In this document: piece by piece, positions 1,540 through 23,297 of the stretch | Position numbering within the stretch: the stretch's first letter is position 1 | Layout of the letters: each line of letters opens with the position of its first letter | DNA from: a virus | Length of the DNA: 23,297 bases | Virus record (IMG/VR): IMGVR_UViG_3300030060_001494 | Coordinates: 1 to 23,297 of that record | Strand: one strand, 5' to 3' | The notes under the pieces: generated by a model | Told to the model about the DNA's origin: nothing | What the model saw: only the letters and a program-made list of their open reading frames with translations | Database searches by the model: none | Made by a program: the position numbers and the translations under genes

Positions 1540-2505
1540 ATGAAACTTAGAGAACCACAAGAAGCGTTAGGCAAGCTAACTCCAGACCATGAAATGTCAG
1601 CTTCGCTAGTATCTGCTTTATGGCATGAAAACCCATATCAGAACCTAAATGAAGTACTAGAAAACTGTCACAAGGCATTGAAGGGGCAAAACATACGTTC
1701 TGAAGCAAATCTTTTGATGGAAGTAGGTAACATCATGGAGAAGCCTTTAATCGCGTTAGCGGCTAAAAGAATAGGTCTTTTTGATTACCATGACGAAATT
1801 CATAAGCCTGTACGCCATAGGCACATAGCTTTGAATGGCTCTATTGATGCCATAGGCGTTGCAGATGGCATAGATATCGTTACTGATCCAGATAAGTCTT
1901 TTTATGTGCCAGAAGGCGATTCTGTACGCTTAGAAGGCAAAGGCATACTAGAGATTAAGGCTACTGGTGCTAGACCTGAAAATCCACCAGCTAATCATCG
2001 TGGGGTTTTGCAATTAAAAGCACTTCTTGCCATAACCAGATATAACTGGGGAGCAGTTTGTGTTGCTTATGGTACTGATTACCGAATCTTCTTTTATCAA
2101 AGAGATGAGCAATGGGAGAAAGAAGAACTTGAACCCAAAGTAAAAGACTTTGATTCTAGGATTGCTGATTGTCGTTACTACGATCCTTTCAACACCAATC
2201 AAGCTAATCATGCTTTTCCATTAGACGATGGTTCAATTATTGATCTGCCTGACGATGCTTTAAACTCAATAGAGAATATCTTATTGCAAGAAAAGACCAT
2301 CAAGGCAGCACAAACGATCATAGACGAACATAAGACTAAGCTGATGAACGCTATGCAGTCTGCTCAGATTGGTAGAATGGGTAAGTATCAAGTGAATTGG
2401 AAAACTGTTAATTACAAAGCTAAACCAGAACAGACTAAAATCATTCCAGCTAAAGATGCTTATACCCAAAGACGATTTTCAATAAAGGTGCATGATGAGT
2501 CATGA
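1540..2505 (+). CDS. YqaJ/lambda-exonuclease-like PD-(D/E)XK nuclease
   Basis: A 321-residue protein with the restriction-endonuclease-like core of YqaJ-type viral recombinases and lambda exonuclease. The visible metal-binding set is Glu67 (GNIMEK), Asp103 (NGSIDAIG) and Glu138-x-Lys140 (ILEIKA), followed by the Gln158 helix (RGVLQLKALL) typical of this family. Members degrade one strand of duplex DNA 5' to 3' and feed a single-strand annealing protein for recombination or concatemer formation. No annealing partner is visible here; it may lie left of the window. Residues 230-321 form a helical, partly coiled tail. The start has the standard GGAGAAAACA leader. Confidence 0.85.
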   Translation: MKLREPQEALGKLTPDHEMSASLVSALWHENPYQNLNEVLENCHKALKGQNIRSEANLLMEVGNIMEKPLIALAAKRIGLFDYHDEIHKPVRHRHIALNGSIDAIGVADGIDIVTDPDKSFYVPEGDSVRLEGKGILEIKATGARPENPPANHRGVLQLKALLAITRYNWGAVCVAYGTDYRIFFYQRDEQWEKEELEPKVKDFDSRIADCRYYDPFNTNQANHAFPLDDGSIIDLPDDALNSIENILLQEKTIKAAQTIIDEHKTKLMNAMQSAQIGRMGKYQVNWKTVNYKAKPEQTKIIPAKDAYTQRRFSIKVHDES

Positions 2506-2614
2506 AATAAACGATATGCTTTTGGAGAGATGGTTTATAGAGTTTTTAGAACAAGGCTACTCAAAGGAAGAAGCTGCAAGATTAGCTATGGAGAAGTTTG
2601 AGAGTTATGGATAA
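2492..2614 (+). CDS. Small helical protein (40 aa) overlapping the nuclease gene
   Basis: Starts ATGATG at 2492 inside the 3' end of the nuclease gene in another frame, with AAAGGTG immediately upstream as ribosome-binding site, and ends at TAA 2612-2614. The product (MMSHEINDML, then EEAARLAMEKF) is an amphipathic helix-turn-helix-sized peptide with an acidic-aromatic N-terminal half. The EEAARLAMEKF segment is typical of very small phage proteins of unknown function. It is the last plus-strand gene before the long gene-free region. Confidence 0.6.
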   Translation: MMSHEINDMLLERWFIEFLEQGYSKEEAARLAMEKFESYG

Positions 2615-2678
2615 ATTGTTGGTTATAAGAAACTATGAACCTTATATTAAAATAATCTAACTATTAATTAACATTTAC

Positions 2679-2707
2679 TTGCAACTTAAAAAACAACAAA
2701 GTATATT
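2679..2707 (+). promoter_or_regulatory. Sigma70-type promoter for the gene-free region
   Basis: -35 TTGCAA (2679-2684), 17-base spacer, -10 TATATT (2702-2707); expected start of transcription near 2714. The block TTTACTTGCAAC at 2674-2685 is identical to the one at the 21342 promoter. No ORF with a ribosome-binding site follows, so the expected transcript is non-coding. Confidence 0.65.
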
Positions 2708-2713
2708 TCTCAT

Positions 2714-3373
2714 ATCGGCTTGTTGGTTAAACGATACAAAACTTAAAGATAACCAAACTTCTTAAAAAGATTAAGAACAAAAAAAGTTCACGATAGTTTC
2801 TTTAAGAGATTAAAGTTTATAGGAGATTTGATTCTAATTATTTAGATTGATATTGAAAATTAGAAATCATTATGATTTACACATGAAAAGAAACTTTGTT
2901 TCTTTGAAAGATGAAACTTGTTGAGTCCCATTTCTGGCTACAGGATAAGCTCTGTAGATAACAGACCAATGGAAATACTCTTGCAAAGAGTTGGAGAAAG
3001 TCCAGACACTACATAGACTCGATCTATGTTAAAAAGTAATCTTAACAAAAAGTGATCTTAGTTGATCGGCTGAAAGAGTCATAAGACTAAAGATAAGAAT
3101 GCTAATGCTTATCTAATATTTAACTACAGATATTATAGTCTTATGAATATGCGTGTTAAGTGTAATAGTAATGAGAGGAAGCGGGATAATTGTTGTTGTC
3201 GCCTTATGTGCTGAAGTACAACACAACCCCCACAACGATTAGGTATTGGCTTGTCTATGCAGATTCTAGGTGAATAAGAGAGTAGTTTCGTCTGCATATA
3301 TTTAAGTAAAAGTTCATGGCTTGATTATCAATTTCTAGGAATCTAAAGATAAGTAGCACTTATTATAGATTCC
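2714..3373 (+). ncRNA. Putative large structured non-coding RNA (~660 nt)
   Basis: Nothing longer than a 23-codon frame is seen here, in a genome that otherwise has almost no gaps. The stretch follows a promoter and has many perfect stems: 2723-2729/2750-2756; 2759-2765/2771-2777; 2833-2839/2858-2864; 2887-2894/2898-2905; nested CCATT, TCTG and CTACAG stems within 2929-2973; ACTCT/AGAGT near 2986-3000; ACATAGA/TCTATGT near 3011-3029; 3079-3089/3136-3146 (11 bp) enclosing 3091-3097/3108-3114; 3188-3195/3233-3240 (one wobble) enclosing a GTGC-TGAA-GTAC hairpin; 3256-3263/3291-3298; and 3338-3345/3366-3373 enclosing 3349-3354/3358-3363. Size, complexity and phage location recall the GOLLD and ROOL classes of large phage-borne RNAs, but I cannot assign it to one. 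Both ends are estimates; no U-tract terminator follows the last hairpin. Confidence 0.5.
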
Positions 3374-3397
3374 GCAAACTTTAATCCCTTAAAGGAA

Positions 3398-3844
3398 CTA
3401 TTCTTGAACTTCCTTCAACAACTTAGCATTTCTTTTAGCACGATTCGGAACTTGTTCTGCATACTTAGAATCTATTAGTTCTTCTGCTGCTCCGACATAA
3501 TCTGCTTCTGCTAAACAGTTCCACATATTGCGAAACTTAGATAAACCTTTCACCCCCAAATTAAAAGCCATATCGCATAATACGATACGAACATTATGAG
3601 GATAATATTGCCATTCAGGTTTTGCATTTGTGAGTTGTAAAAAAACAGATTCTATATCGTTGTCTAACAGAAAACTAATCTCTGCATCTGATATTCCTAC
3701 ACGATCTAAACATCTTCCAACACCTATAGTCACAAGACCAAGATGATCTTCATAAGGCATTTTTTCATAGCCTTCTTCTTTGATTAGCTTTTCTTTGAGT
3801 TCGCTTCTTAGTTCGTTGGTTGCACCAATTTCGTCAGTTATCAT
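3398..3844 (-). CDS. Endolysin: T4-type lysozyme (muramidase, GH24)
   Basis: A 148-residue muramidase that cleaves the N-acetylmuramic acid to N-acetylglucosamine bond of peptidoglycan. The catalytic triad has exactly T4 lysozyme spacing: Glu24 (KEEGYE), Asp33 (YEDHLG) and Thr39 (TIGVGR), that is E-x8-D-x5-T. Later family words are CDMAFNLGVKGLSKF and a basic end (NRAKRNAKLL). There is no signal peptide or SAR anchor, so it should need the holin for release. Its ATG overlaps the holin stop as TGATG. It is the last gene of the minus-strand late operon; downstream is the convergent ncRNA region. Confidence 0.92.
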   Translation of the reverse strand: MITDEIGATNELRSELKEKLIKEEGYEKMPYEDHLGLVTIGVGRCLDRVGISDAEISFLLDNDIESVFLQLTNAKPEWQYYPHNVRIVLCDMAFNLGVKGLSKFRNMWNCLAEADYVGAAEELIDSKYAEQVPNRAKRNAKLLKEVQE

Positions 3845-4242
3845 CAGTTTCCCTTTGTTACTTTTTCTTTCTTTTCGTAAGTTCTAAGACCAGCCATTCC
3901 TAGCATTGCCATTAGAATTGTAGATAGTTGACTAAATTCAAACTCAGGCAAATCAACTTGTATGCCAGCTATGCCGATAGCAAATTGAATCATAGGTGCA
4001 AGAATAAAATGATAAAGCATAGCAAGACTACAAACCCAGCCGACTGATGGTCGCCAGCCAGCTACAAACCAACTCTTACTAGCAGCTTCAATCTTATTGA
4101 CTTCTATCTGGGCAAGGTTAGCAGTTTGTAATTGTGTCTTGAGTTCGTGTTCTAGTTGCATTTTCAAGTTCTTATCTGCAACAAATTTATTTAATACATT
4201 GCCAGCAATGCCGACAACTGAGTTGGTTATAGGATCAGCCAT
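3844..4242 (-). CDS. Holin of the 3-TM (GTA-type) family
   Basis: About 132 residues. I start at the Met of MADPITNS (4242) rather than four codons earlier (4254), because GGAGATAAAA precedes it. An amphipathic N-terminal region (to about residue 60, with an EHELKTQLQ helix) leads to the family signature SWFVAGWRPSVGWVCSLAML. Membrane spans follow at roughly 62-100 and again near 108-122, before a Lys-rich tail (YEKKEKV). This matches the holin family first described in gene transfer agents and many proteobacterial phages. It would oligomerise in the inner membrane and release the lysozyme encoded next to it. Confidence 0.85.
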   Translation of the reverse strand: MADPITNSVVGIAGNVLNKFVADKNLKMQLEHELKTQLQTANLAQIEVNKIEAASKSWFVAGWRPSVGWVCSLAMLYHFILAPMIQFAIGIAGIQVDLPEFEFSQLSTILMAMLGMAGLRTYEKKEKVTKGN

Positions 4243-16464: not shown

Positions 16465-17712
16465 TTAACTAGCGGCACAGAATGAAACAGCATGACGTAC
16501 TGCGACGTCCACGCTTTGTAGAGCAACCACCCTAACAGTTCCAGAACTAGAACTTGTGTAAGGATCAACAACAATATCAAGCCCACCGAAGAACCCAATC
16601 AATAAGTCATTAAAGTTACCAAATACATAGTTGTTAGCTGTCAATTGAGCAGATACAACTACTGGATAACCATTAACTTCATTGTTTACAGCTACAAATT
16701 CAGCAGTATTGTTTGCCTTTGCAGTTGTTTTTAAAGTTCCATAGTTAGATGGATGTATGATATACGCTAAGTCACCCATTAAAGCATTGTCAACAGCTAC
16801 AGCAGTTTCAATAGAAACCATTTCAGCAAAAGTTGGTGCAGCAGCACTACTTAGAGAAACACTATTAATACCACTTGTGTTAGTAATACCAGTTGGGTTT
16901 CCGCTTGAACCAGAACCTTCAAGAGCAGCATTATCAATAGCAATAGCCATAGATTGTGCTAAATCATCTCTGATCAAGTTTTCAACATCTAATGAAGATT
17001 GAATCATTAGTTGTCTAGTTACATCTGTAAATGCACCTAGAGTTTTAGGTGACATAGTTACAGAACCGATAACCATTTCTGATTCGCCTGAAGCTCCACC
17101 TTCACTTGATATGAAAGCAGCACTTGAAGCAGAAGTCTTTTTAGGGATTTTTACATCGCCAGAAAGACCATTTAGGTTAGTAGCCAAAGGCATAACAGAT
17201 GATGCATTTCTAAGAGCATCAATAAAGTCTGCTGGTCTGAAATCTTGACCAACTAAACCAGCATCGTCAGAAGCATTTAAGTCCCTAGTATTCCAGTTTC
17301 TTAAAACTTCTGGTGGAAGCATGATACCTTGTGCAGTTCTGCCATAGTGTTTAGCAGCTTCTTCTGAACATTCAAATTCAAATTCAGCATCCCTTTGAGC
17401 CTTTTTGTCAGTAGGATTAGCTAAAGCATTTATCGCCTTGAGAACTGAGAATTTTCTCACTTCTTTTTTAGACATACCGATGTCACCAGTTTCTAAAGGT
17501 TTGTCGTTAGAAATATTGTCTAACAATACACCTCTAAATTCTTCAACTGATATGCCTTCTTGAATAGCCTTGTCAGCTAGATCACGCCTGTTGTGTTTAG
17601 CAGCAAGATCAATGATTTCTTTTGAATTTCTTTGAAATTGCTCTCTTGCTTCTGCAACAGATTTTTCTCTAACTTCATCAAGGTTTATTTCACTTTTAAC
17701 TTCTTCAGTCAT
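16465..17712 (-). CDS. Major capsid protein from an internal start (HK97 fold, 415 aa)
   Basis: Within the fused frame, ATG 17712 (MTEEVKSEINL) has a perfectly placed AGAGGT seven bases upstream (17720-17725). Translation from here gives 415 residues, the normal length of HK97-type capsids. About 100 residues of charged helical delta/scaffold domain (VREKSVAEAREQFQ) come first. The shell domain follows: GIMLPPEVLRNW, then VMPLATNLNGLSGDVKIPK, ending SVDVAVRHAVSFCAAS. Free capsid would be needed in hundreds of copies, far more than protease. I therefore expect this internal product to dominate, but only the ribosome-binding site and size support it. Confidence 0.65.
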   Translation of the reverse strand: MTEEVKSEINLDEVREKSVAEAREQFQRNSKEIIDLAAKHNRRDLADKAIQEGISVEEFRGVLLDNISNDKPLETGDIGMSKKEVRKFSVLKAINALANPTDKKAQRDAEFEFECSEEAAKHYGRTAQGIMLPPEVLRNWNTRDLNASDDAGLVGQDFRPADFIDALRNASSVMPLATNLNGLSGDVKIPKKTSASSAAFISSEGGASGESEMVIGSVTMSPKTLGAFTDVTRQLMIQSSLDVENLIRDDLAQSMAIAIDNAALEGSGSSGNPTGITNTSGINSVSLSSAAAPTFAEMVSIETAVAVDNALMGDLAYIIHPSNYGTLKTTAKANNTAEFVAVNNEVNGYPVVVSAQLTANNYVFGNFNDLLIGFFGGLDIVVDPYTSSSSGTVRVVALQSVDVAVRHAVSFCAAS

Positions 17713-19173
17713 TGTTTTTACCTCTATATTAGAAAGTTTGTTTTTGGAACGACCTACTCCAACTGATTTTGATTGATCTGCTGGTACAGAAACGACAGAC
17801 ACTTCTAATGGTGTGTGTTGAACTCTATACACAGGTTTTTCAGAATCATTTGATTTAACTCTTTCCATGTTGTTTATTTTGTAGCCAACTGAGATATTTT
17901 GACGAATACCATCTTTGACATCATTAAATATTTCTTCTGCTAGTTCGCTTCGACCAAACCGAACAATAGCCACCGCCCTTTTTTCAGAAGAATTTAATTT
18001 ATATTGTTCAACCACTCCAATCTGTTTAGTCATGTCGTGATCTAACAATAAAGGTGATCTGCCACTAGCAATAAAGTCAGTTTCAATATCACCTTCAGAA
18101 TGAGATAAGACTTCCATTCCAAATTCCCTTTCAACAGGTTCTTCAGAACTTACGCCTATTCTCACCCTTCTGTTTTCTTCATCAATGTAAGATGCTCTTG
18201 AAAGATCAACAGTACGATAGACAATATCTTCTGCATTTGATCTGTCCTTATCTTTTTCTTCATCTTCATCGTGATATGGTCTGGATTCCATTTCATCTTT
18301 TTCAGATTCATTTTCTTCCATTTCCATTTCTTCTTCCATACCATGATGTTTTGCAAATTCGATGGTGTAACTATCATCGGATTCTTCAACATTTATGATA
18401 TGTCTTTCGTCTTTGTTTTTCATCGCTTTTTCCTCTTTGTCTTTTGATGATAAAGGATGTGATTCAGGCAGTAAATCAGTATCGTGTTTACCGCCTTGAA
18501 ATCTTCCATTCCGCAATGCGAAAAGGAAACTATTTACTCTTGCCATCGCCCAAGTTTGCGGACTAGACACATTAGGTCTGACTGAAGCTGGATTGGTATT
18601 GTATGCACCTATCCCCCTGTCATAGACCTTTTTAAGTGTTCCTAAAGTTGTTCTTTTAGAAGCTGCATTATTAACTTCTTCATTATGTTCTTTGACTTTA
18701 TTTTCTAAAGCCTTTTCTGTTTTTTCTGATATTTGTCTATCTTGTTGTGCCTGACTTGCTGAACCTGATTCTTTTTGTTCAACATATTTGATAGCTTCTA
18801 AAACAACATCTTTCATTTTTTGTTCACCGAGAGTTCCAATCACTCCCCATTTCATTTGTGCAATCACACCAGCTATATTTGATGGTCTGCCAGCTTTATC
18901 GCCTGACTTAAATTGTGAACCATCTTCAAAATGTCTAGCTGCCCATGCTTCCCTTTCTTTGATCCAACTGATAACTCCATCAGTCATTTCTCCATTTCTT
19001 GCTTTAGTCCAAAGATTAAATGCTTCGCTACCTCTGATGTTGCCACCAGCTTTGTAGATATCAGGATCGTTTTCTTTGACACCAGCAATAAAATCATAAT
19101 CAAACTGCGGATAGTTTGAGTTTCGCAAACTGACTTTTTTATCTTCGTCTTTAGTTGGAAAATCAGTTGCCAT
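16465..19173 (-). CDS. Fused head protein: N-terminal domain, S78 prohead protease, HK97-type major capsid
   Basis: One uninterrupted frame of about 902 residues (numbers below count from an ATG nine codons earlier, 19200). I prefer the start at ATG 19173, after AAGGTGGAG and overlapping the portal stop. Domains: residues 30-145, unknown (YPQFDYDFIAGVKENDPDIY, ISWIKEREAWAARHFEDG); 190-245, a conserved unknown unit (VYDRGIGAY, VRPN, WAMARVNSF, DTDLL); 287-320, a very acidic linker; 325-480, S78 protease with His388 (LLDHDM), Ser437 (NISVGY) and Glu466 (PLEVSVVSVPAD); 497-911, HK97 capsid. The protease should remove the scaffolding parts during head maturation. Protease-capsid fusions are known; the large N-terminal addition is not usual. 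Confidence 0.85.
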   Translation of the reverse strand: MATDFPTKDEDKKVSLRNSNYPQFDYDFIAGVKENDPDIYKAGGNIRGSEAFNLWTKARNGEMTDGVISWIKEREAWAARHFEDGSQFKSGDKAGRPSNIAGVIAQMKWGVIGTLGEQKMKDVVLEAIKYVEQKESGSASQAQQDRQISEKTEKALENKVKEHNEEVNNAASKRTTLGTLKKVYDRGIGAYNTNPASVRPNVSSPQTWAMARVNSFLFALRNGRFQGGKHDTDLLPESHPLSSKDKEEKAMKNKDERHIINVEESDDSYTIEFAKHHGMEEEMEMEENESEKDEMESRPYHDEDEEKDKDRSNAEDIVYRTVDLSRASYIDEENRRVRIGVSSEEPVEREFGMEVLSHSEGDIETDFIASGRSPLLLDHDMTKQIGVVEQYKLNSSEKRAVAIVRFGRSELAEEIFNDVKDGIRQNISVGYKINNMERVKSNDSEKPVYRVQHTPLEVSVVSVPADQSKSVGVGRSKNKLSNIEVKTMTEEVKSEINLDEVREKSVAEAREQFQRNSKEIIDLAAKHNRRDLADKAIQEGISVEEFRGVLLDNISNDKPLETGDIGMSKKEVRKFSVLKAINALANPTDKKAQRDAEFEFECSEEAAKHYGRTAQGIMLPPEVLRNWNTRDLNASDDAGLVGQDFRPADFIDALRNASSVMPLATNLNGLSGDVKIPKKTSASSAAFISSEGGASGESEMVIGSVTMSPKTLGAFTDVTRQLMIQSSLDVENLIRDDLAQSMAIAIDNAALEGSGSSGNPTGITNTSGINSVSLSSAAAPTFAEMVSIETAVAVDNALMGDLAYIIHPSNYGTLKTTAKANNTAEFVAVNNEVNGYPVVVSAQLTANNYVFGNFNDLLIGFFGGLDIVVDPYTSSSSGTVRVVALQSVDVAVRHAVSFCAAS
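18421..18436 (-). promoter_or_regulatory. Internal ribosome-binding site before Met260 of the fused head gene
   Basis: AGAGGA (18431-18436) stands seven bases before an in-frame ATG (18421-18423, MKNKDERHII). Initiation here would skip the unknown N-terminal domains and yield a protease-capsid protein of 652 residues, with the acidic linker at its N-terminus. The same motif can arise from Glu/Lys codons by chance, so this is weaker than the 17712 start. Confidence 0.4.
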
Positions 19174-20665
19174 CATCTCCACCTTGTATGTCTGCTTCAA
19201 CTGGCATTTTCATGCCATAGGGTTGAAATGCAGTTTTGATTCCATATTGTTCAGCCAGCTTTTGTTCTCTTTCATGTTGTTCAAACAGTTCTTCAACATC
19301 TCTGCCATAGTTTGCTTGTACATCTTGAAAGGTAACTAGACCTGATTGCATACCGCTTATGGATGCCATCATTTCTTTTTGTGGATCAACCCATGAGAAA
19401 CTTCTAGGAATAAAATTAGCTGCTAATGCAAACTTATCGTATCTGCTAATTGGTAAGGGTTGATTCGTTGATGGTGATGTTGATATTGCACCAGATGATA
19501 TAGCCATCTCTAGCCACTTCTCAAATACTGGTCTAACAAAATGATCTATAGTGAATCTTTGATATAACCTGTACATCTCACGATCTTCTAAAGCACCAGC
19601 ACGAAGGGATGAATAATTTACCGAACTTAAATCGTTAGTTAAAGCATGGTAAGAAATATTCAATCCTGATGCTATGCTTCTAAGAACCTGAGTTGAAAAA
19701 GATTCAAAAGCAGATGTTGGATGCGATGGATCAAATTCTTTGAAATCCATGCCACTAGGTAATTGTTCAAATGTACCAGCTTCAGCGTTCATTATTGGTA
19801 CATATTCTTCATCTTCGCCATCACCAACATATTGATCACCATCCTGTGAAACAAAGAATCCCATCTTACTTGCAGCAGTTCTAGCTGCCACAATTTCTGC
19901 TTCAAGATAACCATTTAATAATTTGATGTTTGCCATTGCAGAAGCAGTAAATGGTACTCCTCTGTTTTGCTCTGGTCTTTGCGGAATGTAAGCATGAATT
20001 AATTCATCAGCACTTACTCTTATGTGTTTTTGTGTATGTTCATAAGTGTTATCAAAAGGATGATTCTTATATAGATAGTAGGCTATAGGTTTTTGATTTG
20101 AATTAACTTCAACACCCATTTTAATTTTGTTGCCATTATTTTTTGCATCTTCATTTTTCTTTTCATCTAAATGATCTGCTTCTAAAAATTCTATTTTGTA
20201 ACCAAATTCAGAATCCCTTGATTTGACATGACGAACAAGAACTTCGCCATCTCTAGCTAATGATTCAACAAATAATTTTTGACAATCAATAAATGAAAGT
20301 CTGCCATTAGTTGTGCAACTACCTAGCTTGCACCAATTTCTCCATTGCTGTTCTATGATTCTGTTTGCAACTAAATCTAAAGAACCATCATCGTTTCTTG
20401 CTTTCATTGAAAGTCTTATGCCATTAGAACCAACAATGTTGCTTTGCATAAGATTTAAATATCTTTGAACATAAGAATCATTCCTTGCTAAATCTCTTGA
20501 TCTATCTCTTAGCAGTCTAAGTTGATCTTTGATTTCTGCATCAGCAGATGTAGATGTTTGCATGAAGTCAGAAAATAATCTTCCTGTGCTTGCACCTTGA
20601 TATTTCCTAGTTCTAGGAAAGTTTCTTTTTTTTGTTCTTCTTCTGAATCTATCGTACCAAGCCAT
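19163..20665 (-). CDS. Portal protein (lambda B family)
   Basis: 500 residues, typical for this family. It has the basic N-terminus (MAWYDRFRRRTKKRNFPRTR). The family stretch LRDRSRDLARNDSYVQRYLNL then NIVGSNGIRL follows, with the wing (SFIDCQKLFVESLARDGEVLVR, IEFLEADHLD). IHAYIPQRPEQNRGVPFTAS and the clip/stem region LNISYHALTNDLSSVNYSSLRAGALEDRE complete the pattern. It forms the dodecameric ring through which DNA enters and leaves the head. The start is TAATG-coupled to the connector gene, with GGAG ten bases upstream; the stop overlaps the fused head gene. Confidence 0.93.
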   Translation of the reverse strand: MAWYDRFRRRTKKRNFPRTRKYQGASTGRLFSDFMQTSTSADAEIKDQLRLLRDRSRDLARNDSYVQRYLNLMQSNIVGSNGIRLSMKARNDDGSLDLVANRIIEQQWRNWCKLGSCTTNGRLSFIDCQKLFVESLARDGEVLVRHVKSRDSEFGYKIEFLEADHLDEKKNEDAKNNGNKIKMGVEVNSNQKPIAYYLYKNHPFDNTYEHTQKHIRVSADELIHAYIPQRPEQNRGVPFTASAMANIKLLNGYLEAEIVAARTAASKMGFFVSQDGDQYVGDGEDEEYVPIMNAEAGTFEQLPSGMDFKEFDPSHPTSAFESFSTQVLRSIASGLNISYHALTNDLSSVNYSSLRAGALEDREMYRLYQRFTIDHFVRPVFEKWLEMAISSGAISTSPSTNQPLPISRYDKFALAANFIPRSFSWVDPQKEMMASISGMQSGLVTFQDVQANYGRDVEELFEQHEREQKLAEQYGIKTAFQPYGMKMPVEADIQGGDDGN

Positions 20666-21283: not shown

Positions 21284-21341
21284 AATCAAAAAGCAATAAA
21301 TCTTTAGGTAAAAAAAACTTTAAATAAAGTGTAACTTTTAC

Positions 21342-21369
21342 TTGCAACAATTTAGAAAATAAGTATAAT
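21342..21369 (+). promoter_or_regulatory. Sigma70-type promoter of the 57-aa moron gene
   Basis: -35 TTGCAA (21342-21347), 16-base spacer, perfect -10 TATAAT (21364-21369); start of transcription expected near 21376. The surrounding TTTACTTGCAAC (21337-21348) is identical to that at the 2679 promoter. Confidence 0.75.
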
Positions 21370-21413
21370 AATAACTGTAGCCAATGATGGTTGAACTTAA
21401 CAAGGAGAAAACA

Positions 21414-21587
21414 ATGGAAAACTTAAACAACTTAGAAATGAATCACATCTTAGACTCGCTTTATTCTCAAAGAAACAAAATAGAAAAAGCTAACTCTAAA
21501 TTTGATGGAGAATTCCAAAAAGAACTTGATTTCAATATGAAGTTAATAAAAAAAGTTTATGCACACTTAATAAACGAAACCGAATAA
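21414..21587 (+). CDS. Moron-like small protein (57 aa) inside the late operon
   Basis: I choose ATG 21414 (leader CAAGGAGAAAACA) over an in-frame ATG at 21384, because this leader is the one used by the plus-strand early genes 20 kb away. The product (MENLNNLEMNHILDSLYSQR to YAHLINETE) is fully helical, likely a coiled coil or small bundle, with alternating Lys and Glu. It has no Cys, membrane span or recognisable motif. It stands on the strand opposite to the late genes with its own promoter and terminator, so it is expressed independently, perhaps early or in lysogeny. Function unknown; anti-host or exclusion activity would be typical of such inserts. Confidence 0.8.
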   Translation: MENLNNLEMNHILDSLYSQRNKIEKANSKFDGEFQKELDFNMKLIKKVYAHLINETE

Positions 21588-21601
21588 TCAATTATTTTTC
21601 T

Positions 21602-21631
21602 AAAAGCCACCTATATAGGTGGCTTTTTTTT
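21602..21631 (+). terminator. Bidirectional intrinsic terminator
   Basis: GCCACC-TATATA-GGTGGC (21606-21623) is a perfect 18-base palindrome with AAAA before and an eight-T run after it on the plus strand. It ends the 57-aa gene 14 bases after its stop neighbourhood. On the minus strand the same stem is followed by TTTTAG, so it can also reduce transcription leaving the terminase gene; the terminase stop codon lies within the T-run. Confidence 0.9.
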
Positions 21632-23297
21632 ATCTCCAAGAATTGACCCAGTTTGGATTTCTTCTGTTTCTGTTCAGTTTTCTTTTTTTCTGTATTGGTT
21701 TTTGATCTGTAGCTTTGTTTTTTAAACTTTCTAAATCAGGGTTCAAGATATAAAAACCAGCGATGTTATAAACCCAAGTATCTAAGACTTCATTTCTTTC
21801 TCTGATCTGTTTCCATTCCATTCGCTTTTGTCCTTTATAATATTTAATGATTCTTTTCTCTGCTGTTAGCTGTCGAAAATATTCTTCATCAACATCTGCT
21901 GGAAAATGAATATAACCAGATTTAACTTCGTCAATATTGAGCCATGAAAATAAAGTGTCTTTTGCGGAATCTGTACCTACTGGGAAAAGTTGCACTCTTT
22001 GCTTACCTGATTGTGTTGGTCTATTGGCAATTGGTTTACCATGTTGACTCTGCCCTTTGATTGCAAAGATTCTTCTGCCTTGTCGTTGTTTACAGAAAGC
22101 ATAAACATTTTGAGTTGCATAACCTGAGTCAATACAAGTGATAGATATTTTTATGGTTCTGCCATCTTCTGTTTTGAATGACGATTTCAAATATTCATCT
22201 AGTTCGTTCCAGACTTGTAATTGGTTTGGATCACCAAACATGATTTGATAATCCACGACATACATCTGATTTTCAGCCGACCAACCGATAACTTGTGACT
22301 CGATCCGATCTGACTGCACATCAATACCGCAAGTCAGCAAGACAACTGGTTCGGGTATAGATTGTGCATCGTAGTTTTCTCTGCGATTAAGTAACGAATC
22401 ACTTTCTATTTCTTCTGCATCTGATTGCCAAACCTGACCAAGTGAAGTATTTACAAAAACTCTTAACTGATCTGGATGTTCTTTTGCATTGAGAAATGAT
22501 TCAACGACTTCTGACCAAGATCGCCAAACTGAGTACAGTTCATTAAGATGAAAACCAGCAGTCTTGTAGGTTTCTTCTTCTGCAATCCATTTACCATTTC
22601 TGATCATCCAGATTTTATCTTTTTCTTCTATGACTGATCCGCAATGTATGCAGACCATGTGTGCATCTTTTGCTTCATCCCATTTTACATTTGCCCATTC
22701 TAGTTTTTGTTTCTCTTTGCAATGCGGACAAGGAACATGGAAATATCTTTTATCTGATTCTTCCCATGCATCTTGTATTCTTGATGCACCATCTATCGTT
22801 GGCGTTGATGTCATTATGATTTTACGATTGGCAAATGTTGCTGTTCTTTTAGTTGCAAGTGATACAGCGTCACCTTCACTTGTTGTTTCGTAACGATCAA
22901 CCTCATCAAGCAGAACAATCCTACATGGTCTGGATGCTAATGAAGCTGGTGAGTTTGATCCAGTCATTACAACGAAACCACCAGCAAAGGATTTAGATAA
23001 TATTGTGTTTCCTGAATCTCTAGCTTTAGAGTCTTTGATCTTGTGCTTTAAAGATTCAGAAGCAGCGATCATTTTTGAAAATCTTTGGGTACTCCATGAT
23101 CTAGCCATTTCTAAAGTTGGCATGACTACAAGCATAGGTGCTGGATCGTGGGCAATGTGATAACCAATAATGTTATTAATCATCTCAGTCTTGCCAACCT
23201 GTGACGAACTCATAATGACGATTCGTTCTAATCTGCGATCATTGACCGCATCCATCATTCCTCTTTGGTATTCTGCTCTGCTAGTTTTCCATTGACC
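21630..23297 (-). CDS. Large terminase, GpA family (N-terminus outside the window)
   Basis: The frame is still open at the right edge (upstream residues GQWKTSRAEYQRG before the first Met), so about 555 residues are seen and the start is missing. The packaging ATPase is visible: Walker A-like SSSQVGKT (window residues 30-37), Walker B VLLDEVD (about 128-134) and the SATP-like MTSTPT. A four-Cys zinc ribbon follows (CPHC and CIHC, about 190-219), as in lambda A/GpA proteins. The nuclease part has CGIDVQSDRIE, CIDSGYAT and NEVLDTWVYNIAG, giving the acidic residues. It cuts concatemers and pumps DNA into the prohead. The C-terminus is very basic (KKRKLNRNRRN). Confidence 0.93.
   Translation of the reverse strand, partial: GQWKTSRAEYQRGMMDAVNDRRLERIVIMSSSQVGKTEMINNIIGYHIAHDPAPMLVVMPTLEMARSWSTQRFSKMIAASESLKHKIKDSKARDSGNTILSKSFAGGFVVMTGSNSPASLASRPCRIVLLDEVDRYETTSEGDAVSLATKRTATFANRKIIMTSTPTIDGASRIQDAWEESDKRYFHVPCPHCKEKQKLEWANVKWDEAKDAHMVCIHCGSVIEEKDKIWMIRNGKWIAEEETYKTAGFHLNELYSVWRSWSEVVESFLNAKEHPDQLRVFVNTSLGQVWQSDAEEIESDSLLNRRENYDAQSIPEPVVLLTCGIDVQSDRIESQVIGWSAENQMYVVDYQIMFGDPNQLQVWNELDEYLKSSFKTEDGRTIKISITCIDSGYATQNVYAFCKQRQGRRIFAIKGQSQHGKPIANRPTQSGKQRVQLFPVGTDSAKDTLFSWLNIDEVKSGYIHFPADVDEEYFRQLTAEKRIIKYYKGQKRMEWKQIRERNEVLDTWVYNIAGFYILNPDLESLKNKATDQKPIQKKRKLNRNRRNPNWVNSWR

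Follow-up and report, generated by a model that had tools for sequence, protein, structure and literature searches.

A stretch of about 800 nt without a supportable gene was found at positions 2615-3397 of a viral DNA (IMG/VR record IMGVR_UViG_3300030060_001494, positions 1 to 23,297; the whole 23,297 nt is called the window). The stretch is probably part of an accessory, 'moron'-type cassette at a swappable site, and the product of this cassette would be a rightward noncoding structured RNA of about 600-700 nt. An earlier note on the same DNA had proposed a promoter-driven, complex folded RNA. This proposal was retained as the best explanation, with the fold z scores, the hairpins and a recurrent promoter motif in its favour. 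The segment 3175-3337, however, folds alone no better than chance, and the folding does not favour the rightward strand.

The phage and its variable cargo site

Genes for a RecE-like exonuclease, an endolysin, a holin, a tape measure protein, a portal protein and a large terminase were recognisable in the window. The terminase is 49% identical to those of roseophages CRP-821/823, which are members of the CRP-822-type family (PMC12629253). Judged by its genes, the source is a marine siphovirus-like phage related to the CRP-822-type roseophages. The window also has a 911-aa ORF (16465-19200, minus strand) in which prohead protease and major capsid domains are fused (PF04586 then PF05065).

The cargo site lies between rightward early genes and leftward lysis genes. 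It was compared with the same site in related phages by blastn of the flanks and direct reading of the junctions. The flanking proteins of the relatives are mostly 92-98% identical, and the flank DNA is 93-97% identical. The insert of the window (2607-3399, no strand assigned) is absent in loci L038, L040 and L044, where the empty junction reads GAGAGTTAT directly followed by TCTTGAACTTCC. In loci L036, L037, L041 and L042, protein genes are found instead, on inserts of 360-1169 bp. The insert sizes in the relatives were 0, ~360, 692, 838 and 1169 bp, and all of these inserts are unrelated to that of the window. The protein encoded by the L042 cargo (1232-2077) has a PAPS-reductase domain (Pfam PF01507, E 8e-9). 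PAPS reductase is an accessory gene in a subset of the CRP-822-type family (PMC12629253). The right junction of the L042 insert likewise replaces the end of the endolysin gene. These comparisons showed that the site varies both in presence or absence and in its cargo. An empty site need not be the ancestral state, as a deletion across a TTAT repeat could also have produced it.

A small conserved ORF of 40 aa (2492-2614, plus strand), with a weak PHROG match of unknown function, borders the cargo site on the left. A second cassette of this kind was observed at 21337-21634, between leftward late genes. It consists of a predicted TTTACTTGCAAC promoter, AAGGAGAAAACAATG and a rightward ORF of 57 aa that belongs to no known family, and its terminator is GCCACC-tatata-GGTGGC followed by a T-run.

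Absence of a supportable gene

The stretch 2615-3397 is bounded by the 40-aa rightward ORF, which ends at 2614, and by the stop codon of the leftward endolysin gene (3398-3400). No ORF of at least 60 aa was found within it. The longest ORF, 54 aa on the minus strand, is at chance level, as the mean of shuffled sequences was 49 aa and 31% of the shuffles attained 54 aa. No ORF of the stretch attained the Pfam cut-off, and the PHROGs search gave nothing at E <0.1. The statement of the earlier note that no supportable gene lies here was thus confirmed. The note had also called such a stretch exceptional in a packed genome, and our gap count agreed with it. When a gap was defined as at least 350 nt without an ORF of at least 45 aa, this stretch was the sole gap in the window, and none was found among 74 other loci.

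Folding of the candidate RNA

The candidate structured RNA was assigned to 2714-3411 on the plus strand by its fold z score, its hairpin excess and the lack of an ORF above chance. Its 5' end was inferred from the predicted promoter, and its 3' limit is provisional. This region contains 10 perfect hairpins of at least 6 bp versus 2.25 expected, a number attained in none of 300 shuffles, and 28 other 698-nt windows contained 0-7. Perfect stems of at least 5 bp numbered 12 versus 7.1 expected (3% of shuffles). The dozen or so perfect stems described previously are therefore real. The minimum free energy of 2714-3411 was also extreme, with z of -5.5 on the plus strand and -6.7 on the minus strand (0 of 200 shuffles each). 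Control folds of 17 other 698-nt pieces, which covered the window up to 8 kb, gave z from +1.9 to -2.65. Some 557-nt coding windows of the same genome attained z of -4 to -4.7, so the free-energy excess is strong but not unique, and an RNA could not be proved from energy alone. The strand is not decided by thermodynamics. The z of the minus strand is the more extreme one, which does not favour the plus strand, and the share of G-U pairs (15 of 209 on plus, 22 of 202 on minus) is not decisive.

The outermost element is a closing helix of about 33 bp between 2784-2818 (5' arm) and 3376-3411 (3' arm), both on the plus strand. Its inverted-match score was 50, and the maximum in 500 shuffles was 33. 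The last 12-14 nt of the 3' arm lie within the conserved 3' end of the endolysin gene, and the insert-free relatives share the flank sequence under this end. What the left arm matches is therefore flank DNA that existed before. An RNA that grew at this site fits this better than would a mobile element carrying end repeats of its own.

Just within the closing helix is a 15-bp hairpin (3338-3373, plus strand) with no T-run behind it. The best-folded part is an inner domain at 2867-3174 on the plus strand (z -4.4 when folded alone), in which a two-step helix (2867-2882/3160-3174) encloses hairpins and a three-way junction. This junction is made by an 11-bp perfect helix (3079-3089/3136-3146, spanning 3079-3146 on the plus strand) that bears two hairpins, 3091-3114 and 3115-3134. 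Nested helices and three-way junctions are typical of RNAs. The segment 3175-3337, about a quarter of the region, folded alone no better than chance. Our results showed strongly non-random pairing with a long closing helix in 2714-3411.

Promoter and terminators

A putative promoter, TTTACTTGCAAC, was located at 2674-2707 on the plus strand, with a -35 of TTGCAA, a 17-nt spacer and a -10 of TATATT. A sigma70-type promoter had been claimed at the start of the region before. The plain consensus does not carry this claim, as the scan gave 9/12 for TTGCAA-17-TATATT (2679-2707), which alone is not above chance. The extended motif, however, recurs. TTTACTTGCAAC occurs twice in the window (2674 and 21337), both times in intergenic DNA. 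The related TACTTGCAAC, usually with TT just before it, heads the cargos of L036, L037 and L041 and an early gene of L038, and in all of these an A/T-rich -10 sits about 15 nt beyond it. The version ahead of the gene-free stretch, at 2674-2707, is TTTACTTGCAACttaaaaaacaacaaagTATATT. A longer promoter pattern matched 3 of 14 related records, and the reversed control matched 0. Because the same motif stands at cargo and early genes of relatives, the promoter at 2674-2707 is credible despite the weak consensus scan, and rightward transcription from about 2714 is favoured. The predicted promoter is thus better supported than the earlier note could tell.

No terminator was found on the plus strand in 2400-3900, nor a leftward one in 2400-3398. 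The cassettes of L036, L037 and L041 terminate with GGGAGTGCTAGTCACTCCC followed by a T-run. Within the structured region, a leftward sigma70-like site (TTAACA-16-TATAAT, 11/12; window 3159-3132, minus strand) was also noticed, which could yield an antisense RNA. The predicted promoter is flanked by an 83% repeat, TTGTTGGTTATAAGAAAC (2616-2633) and TTGTTGGTTAAACGATAC (2720-2737). A further imperfect repeat pair lies at 2796/2898, with a spacing of 102 that is nearly equal to the 104 of the 2616/2720 pair.

Comparison with known RNA families and search for homologues

Rfam was scanned at gathering and lax thresholds and gave chance matches only, with group I and II introns, RNase P, OLE and HEARO included. 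The models of ROOL (RF03087) and GOLLD (RF02032) gave no match at E<=10, and the control genomes were also without a match above the cut-off. No family named in the earlier note (GOLLD, ROOL, HEARO, OLE, group I intron, RNase P) fits the region. ARAGORN found 0 tRNA in the window, which is a fragment of the genome. A GAC/GUC pair resembling P7 of a group I intron was seen by eye at about 2962-3005; this candidate was dropped because the P4-P6 part is missing and Rfam was negative.

Homologues were searched in several collections. Four exact patterns were matched in IMG/VR records, but outside the pattern itself no similarity was seen, and most of the matches visibly lie in coding sequence. Exact patterns of this kind miss all but close copies. 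One exact pattern gave four matches in GTDB genome contigs, with no similarity beyond 18-21 nt. Blastn against phage and plasmid records returned short chance pieces only, and nhmmer against 74 loci found no homologue of the stretch. A DNA search of the records of 25 relatives yielded the promoter piece and short chance matches only. A wider family scan by exonuclease alignment gained distant relatives, among which the number of RNA-like gaps was 0. Pairing of the candidate RNA as antisense with the phage's own genes gave no match longer than 13 nt, and an anti-ribosome-binding motif was absent.

Alternative explanations

The functional RNA could instead be leftward. Late transcripts of the lysis operon that read through the endolysin stop would then carry a structured 3' untranslated region, in which the closing helix stabilises or ends the messenger. 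The endolysin gene does point into the region, no leftward terminator follows it in 2400-3398, the closing helix begins in its codons and overlaps its 3' end, and the minus-strand z (-6.7) is the more extreme. We nevertheless regard this as unlikely, because a recurrent rightward promoter motif heads the cassette, and because insert-free relatives keep an intact endolysin gene without such an RNA, which means that their lysis operon can do without it. Slightly less likely again is an element acting as DNA, either a set of palindromes to which proteins bind or a non-autonomous insertion whose ends are inverted. Its folding as RNA would be incidental. Many stems are pure Watson-Crick and hence symmetric on both strands, and each closing arm (CTTTAAgagaTTAAAG and CTTTAAtcccTTAAAG) is a quasi-palindrome by itself. 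These palindromes are, however, absent elsewhere in the window and in the 11 relatives' loci checked, and DNA binding needs neither nested helices nor a three-way junction. The right arm enters flank DNA common to insert-free relatives, and no target duplication was seen. A MITE with terminal repeats was dropped for the same extension of the right repeat into the native flank, and an imperfect direct repeat between the two ends of the insert was not significant (17% of shuffles).

The relatives' cargos at this site are protein genes under the same promoter, so that a decayed cargo gene, of which the promoter and debris are left and which folds by chance, has to be considered as well; the lack of excess structure in 3175-3337 would suit it. 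This explanation is improbable, as no ORF fragment has a meaningful Pfam or PHROG match, a ribosome-binding motif comparable to AAGGAGAAAACAATG, which other cargos have, is missing, and the structure is far above that of shuffles. The least probable explanation, which we give very little weight, is a highly diverged ROOL or GOLLD member missed by the models. The candidate RNA is similar in size, complexity and phage location, and members of both families occur in phages and prophages (PMC12286853). Neither RF03087 nor RF02032 matched at E<=10, and the lax Rfam scans matched neither family. The window contains 0 tRNA, whereas both families are often near tRNA islands (PMC12286853); for ROOL this location is typical but not obligatory. 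The suggestion of a divergent ROOL or GOLLD member in the earlier note was thus not upheld.

Discussion

The rightward RNA of a moron cassette, which is the reading we prefer, agrees with other morons in several features. The insert is an extra cassette that close relatives (L038, L040 and L044) lack at the same site; it has its own predicted promoter, a recurrent motif common to other cargo cassettes; and it occupies a permissive intergenic site that varies among close relatives. An own terminator was not seen on the plus strand. As to base composition, in which a moron would differ from its host phage, the GC content of the stretch (0.29-0.32) is only slightly lower than that of the phage (about 0.35). 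Noncoding RNAs have a precedent at phage moron sites, namely the sRNAs of 51-60 nt in lambdoid prophages (PMC4104026). Compared with these sRNAs, the candidate RNA would be about ten times larger and structured, and no terminator was seen for it.

The likeness of the candidate RNA to ROOL and GOLLD lies in its size and its phage setting alone. Like ROOL, it would be hundreds of nt long, elaborately folded, phage-encoded and without a known protein partner. It differs from ROOL in having no model match and no tRNA island nearby, and a single sequence is known. Like GOLLD, it would be a large phage or prophage RNA, and some GOLLD members come from marine samples (PMC12286853). It differs in lacking a match to the GOLLD model (conserved 3' domain) and a tRNA in the window. 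In addition, the promoter motif found here also serves an early gene in L038, whereas the level of GOLLD rises at lysis (PMC12286853).

Cargo at moron sites would usually act on the host. To our knowledge, no function has been established for ROOL, GOLLD and other large structured RNAs of phages. In the mechanism we propose, transcription would start at about 2714 early in infection and run rightward from the promoter. The two ends of the transcript would pair in the 33-bp helix, which may shield the RNA or be trimmed by RNase III. The compact RNA may then act in trans on a host component, as a protein or RNA sponge or as a counter-defence factor; we infer this because relatives fill the same place with dispensable protein genes. 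As no terminator was seen at the right, rightward transcripts may continue antisense into the endolysin gene, and a delay of lysis by such read-through is conceivable.

Tentatively, and with less confidence than in the cassette itself, the candidate RNA may be the first example of a class of large ornate phage RNAs that has so far gone unrecognised. Such RNAs would replace accessory protein genes as interchangeable cargo behind the same early promoter, and during infection they would act on the host in trans. If the region is a DNA element or a decayed gene instead, it is ordinary. What is new here is the context. In close relatives the site either lacks an insert or is filled with unrelated genes for proteins, and several of these genes have the same promoter motif. 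If true, a large RNA in such a slot would give a natural comparison of phages with and without it, and would link large RNAs to those accessory parts of phage genomes that are directed at the host.
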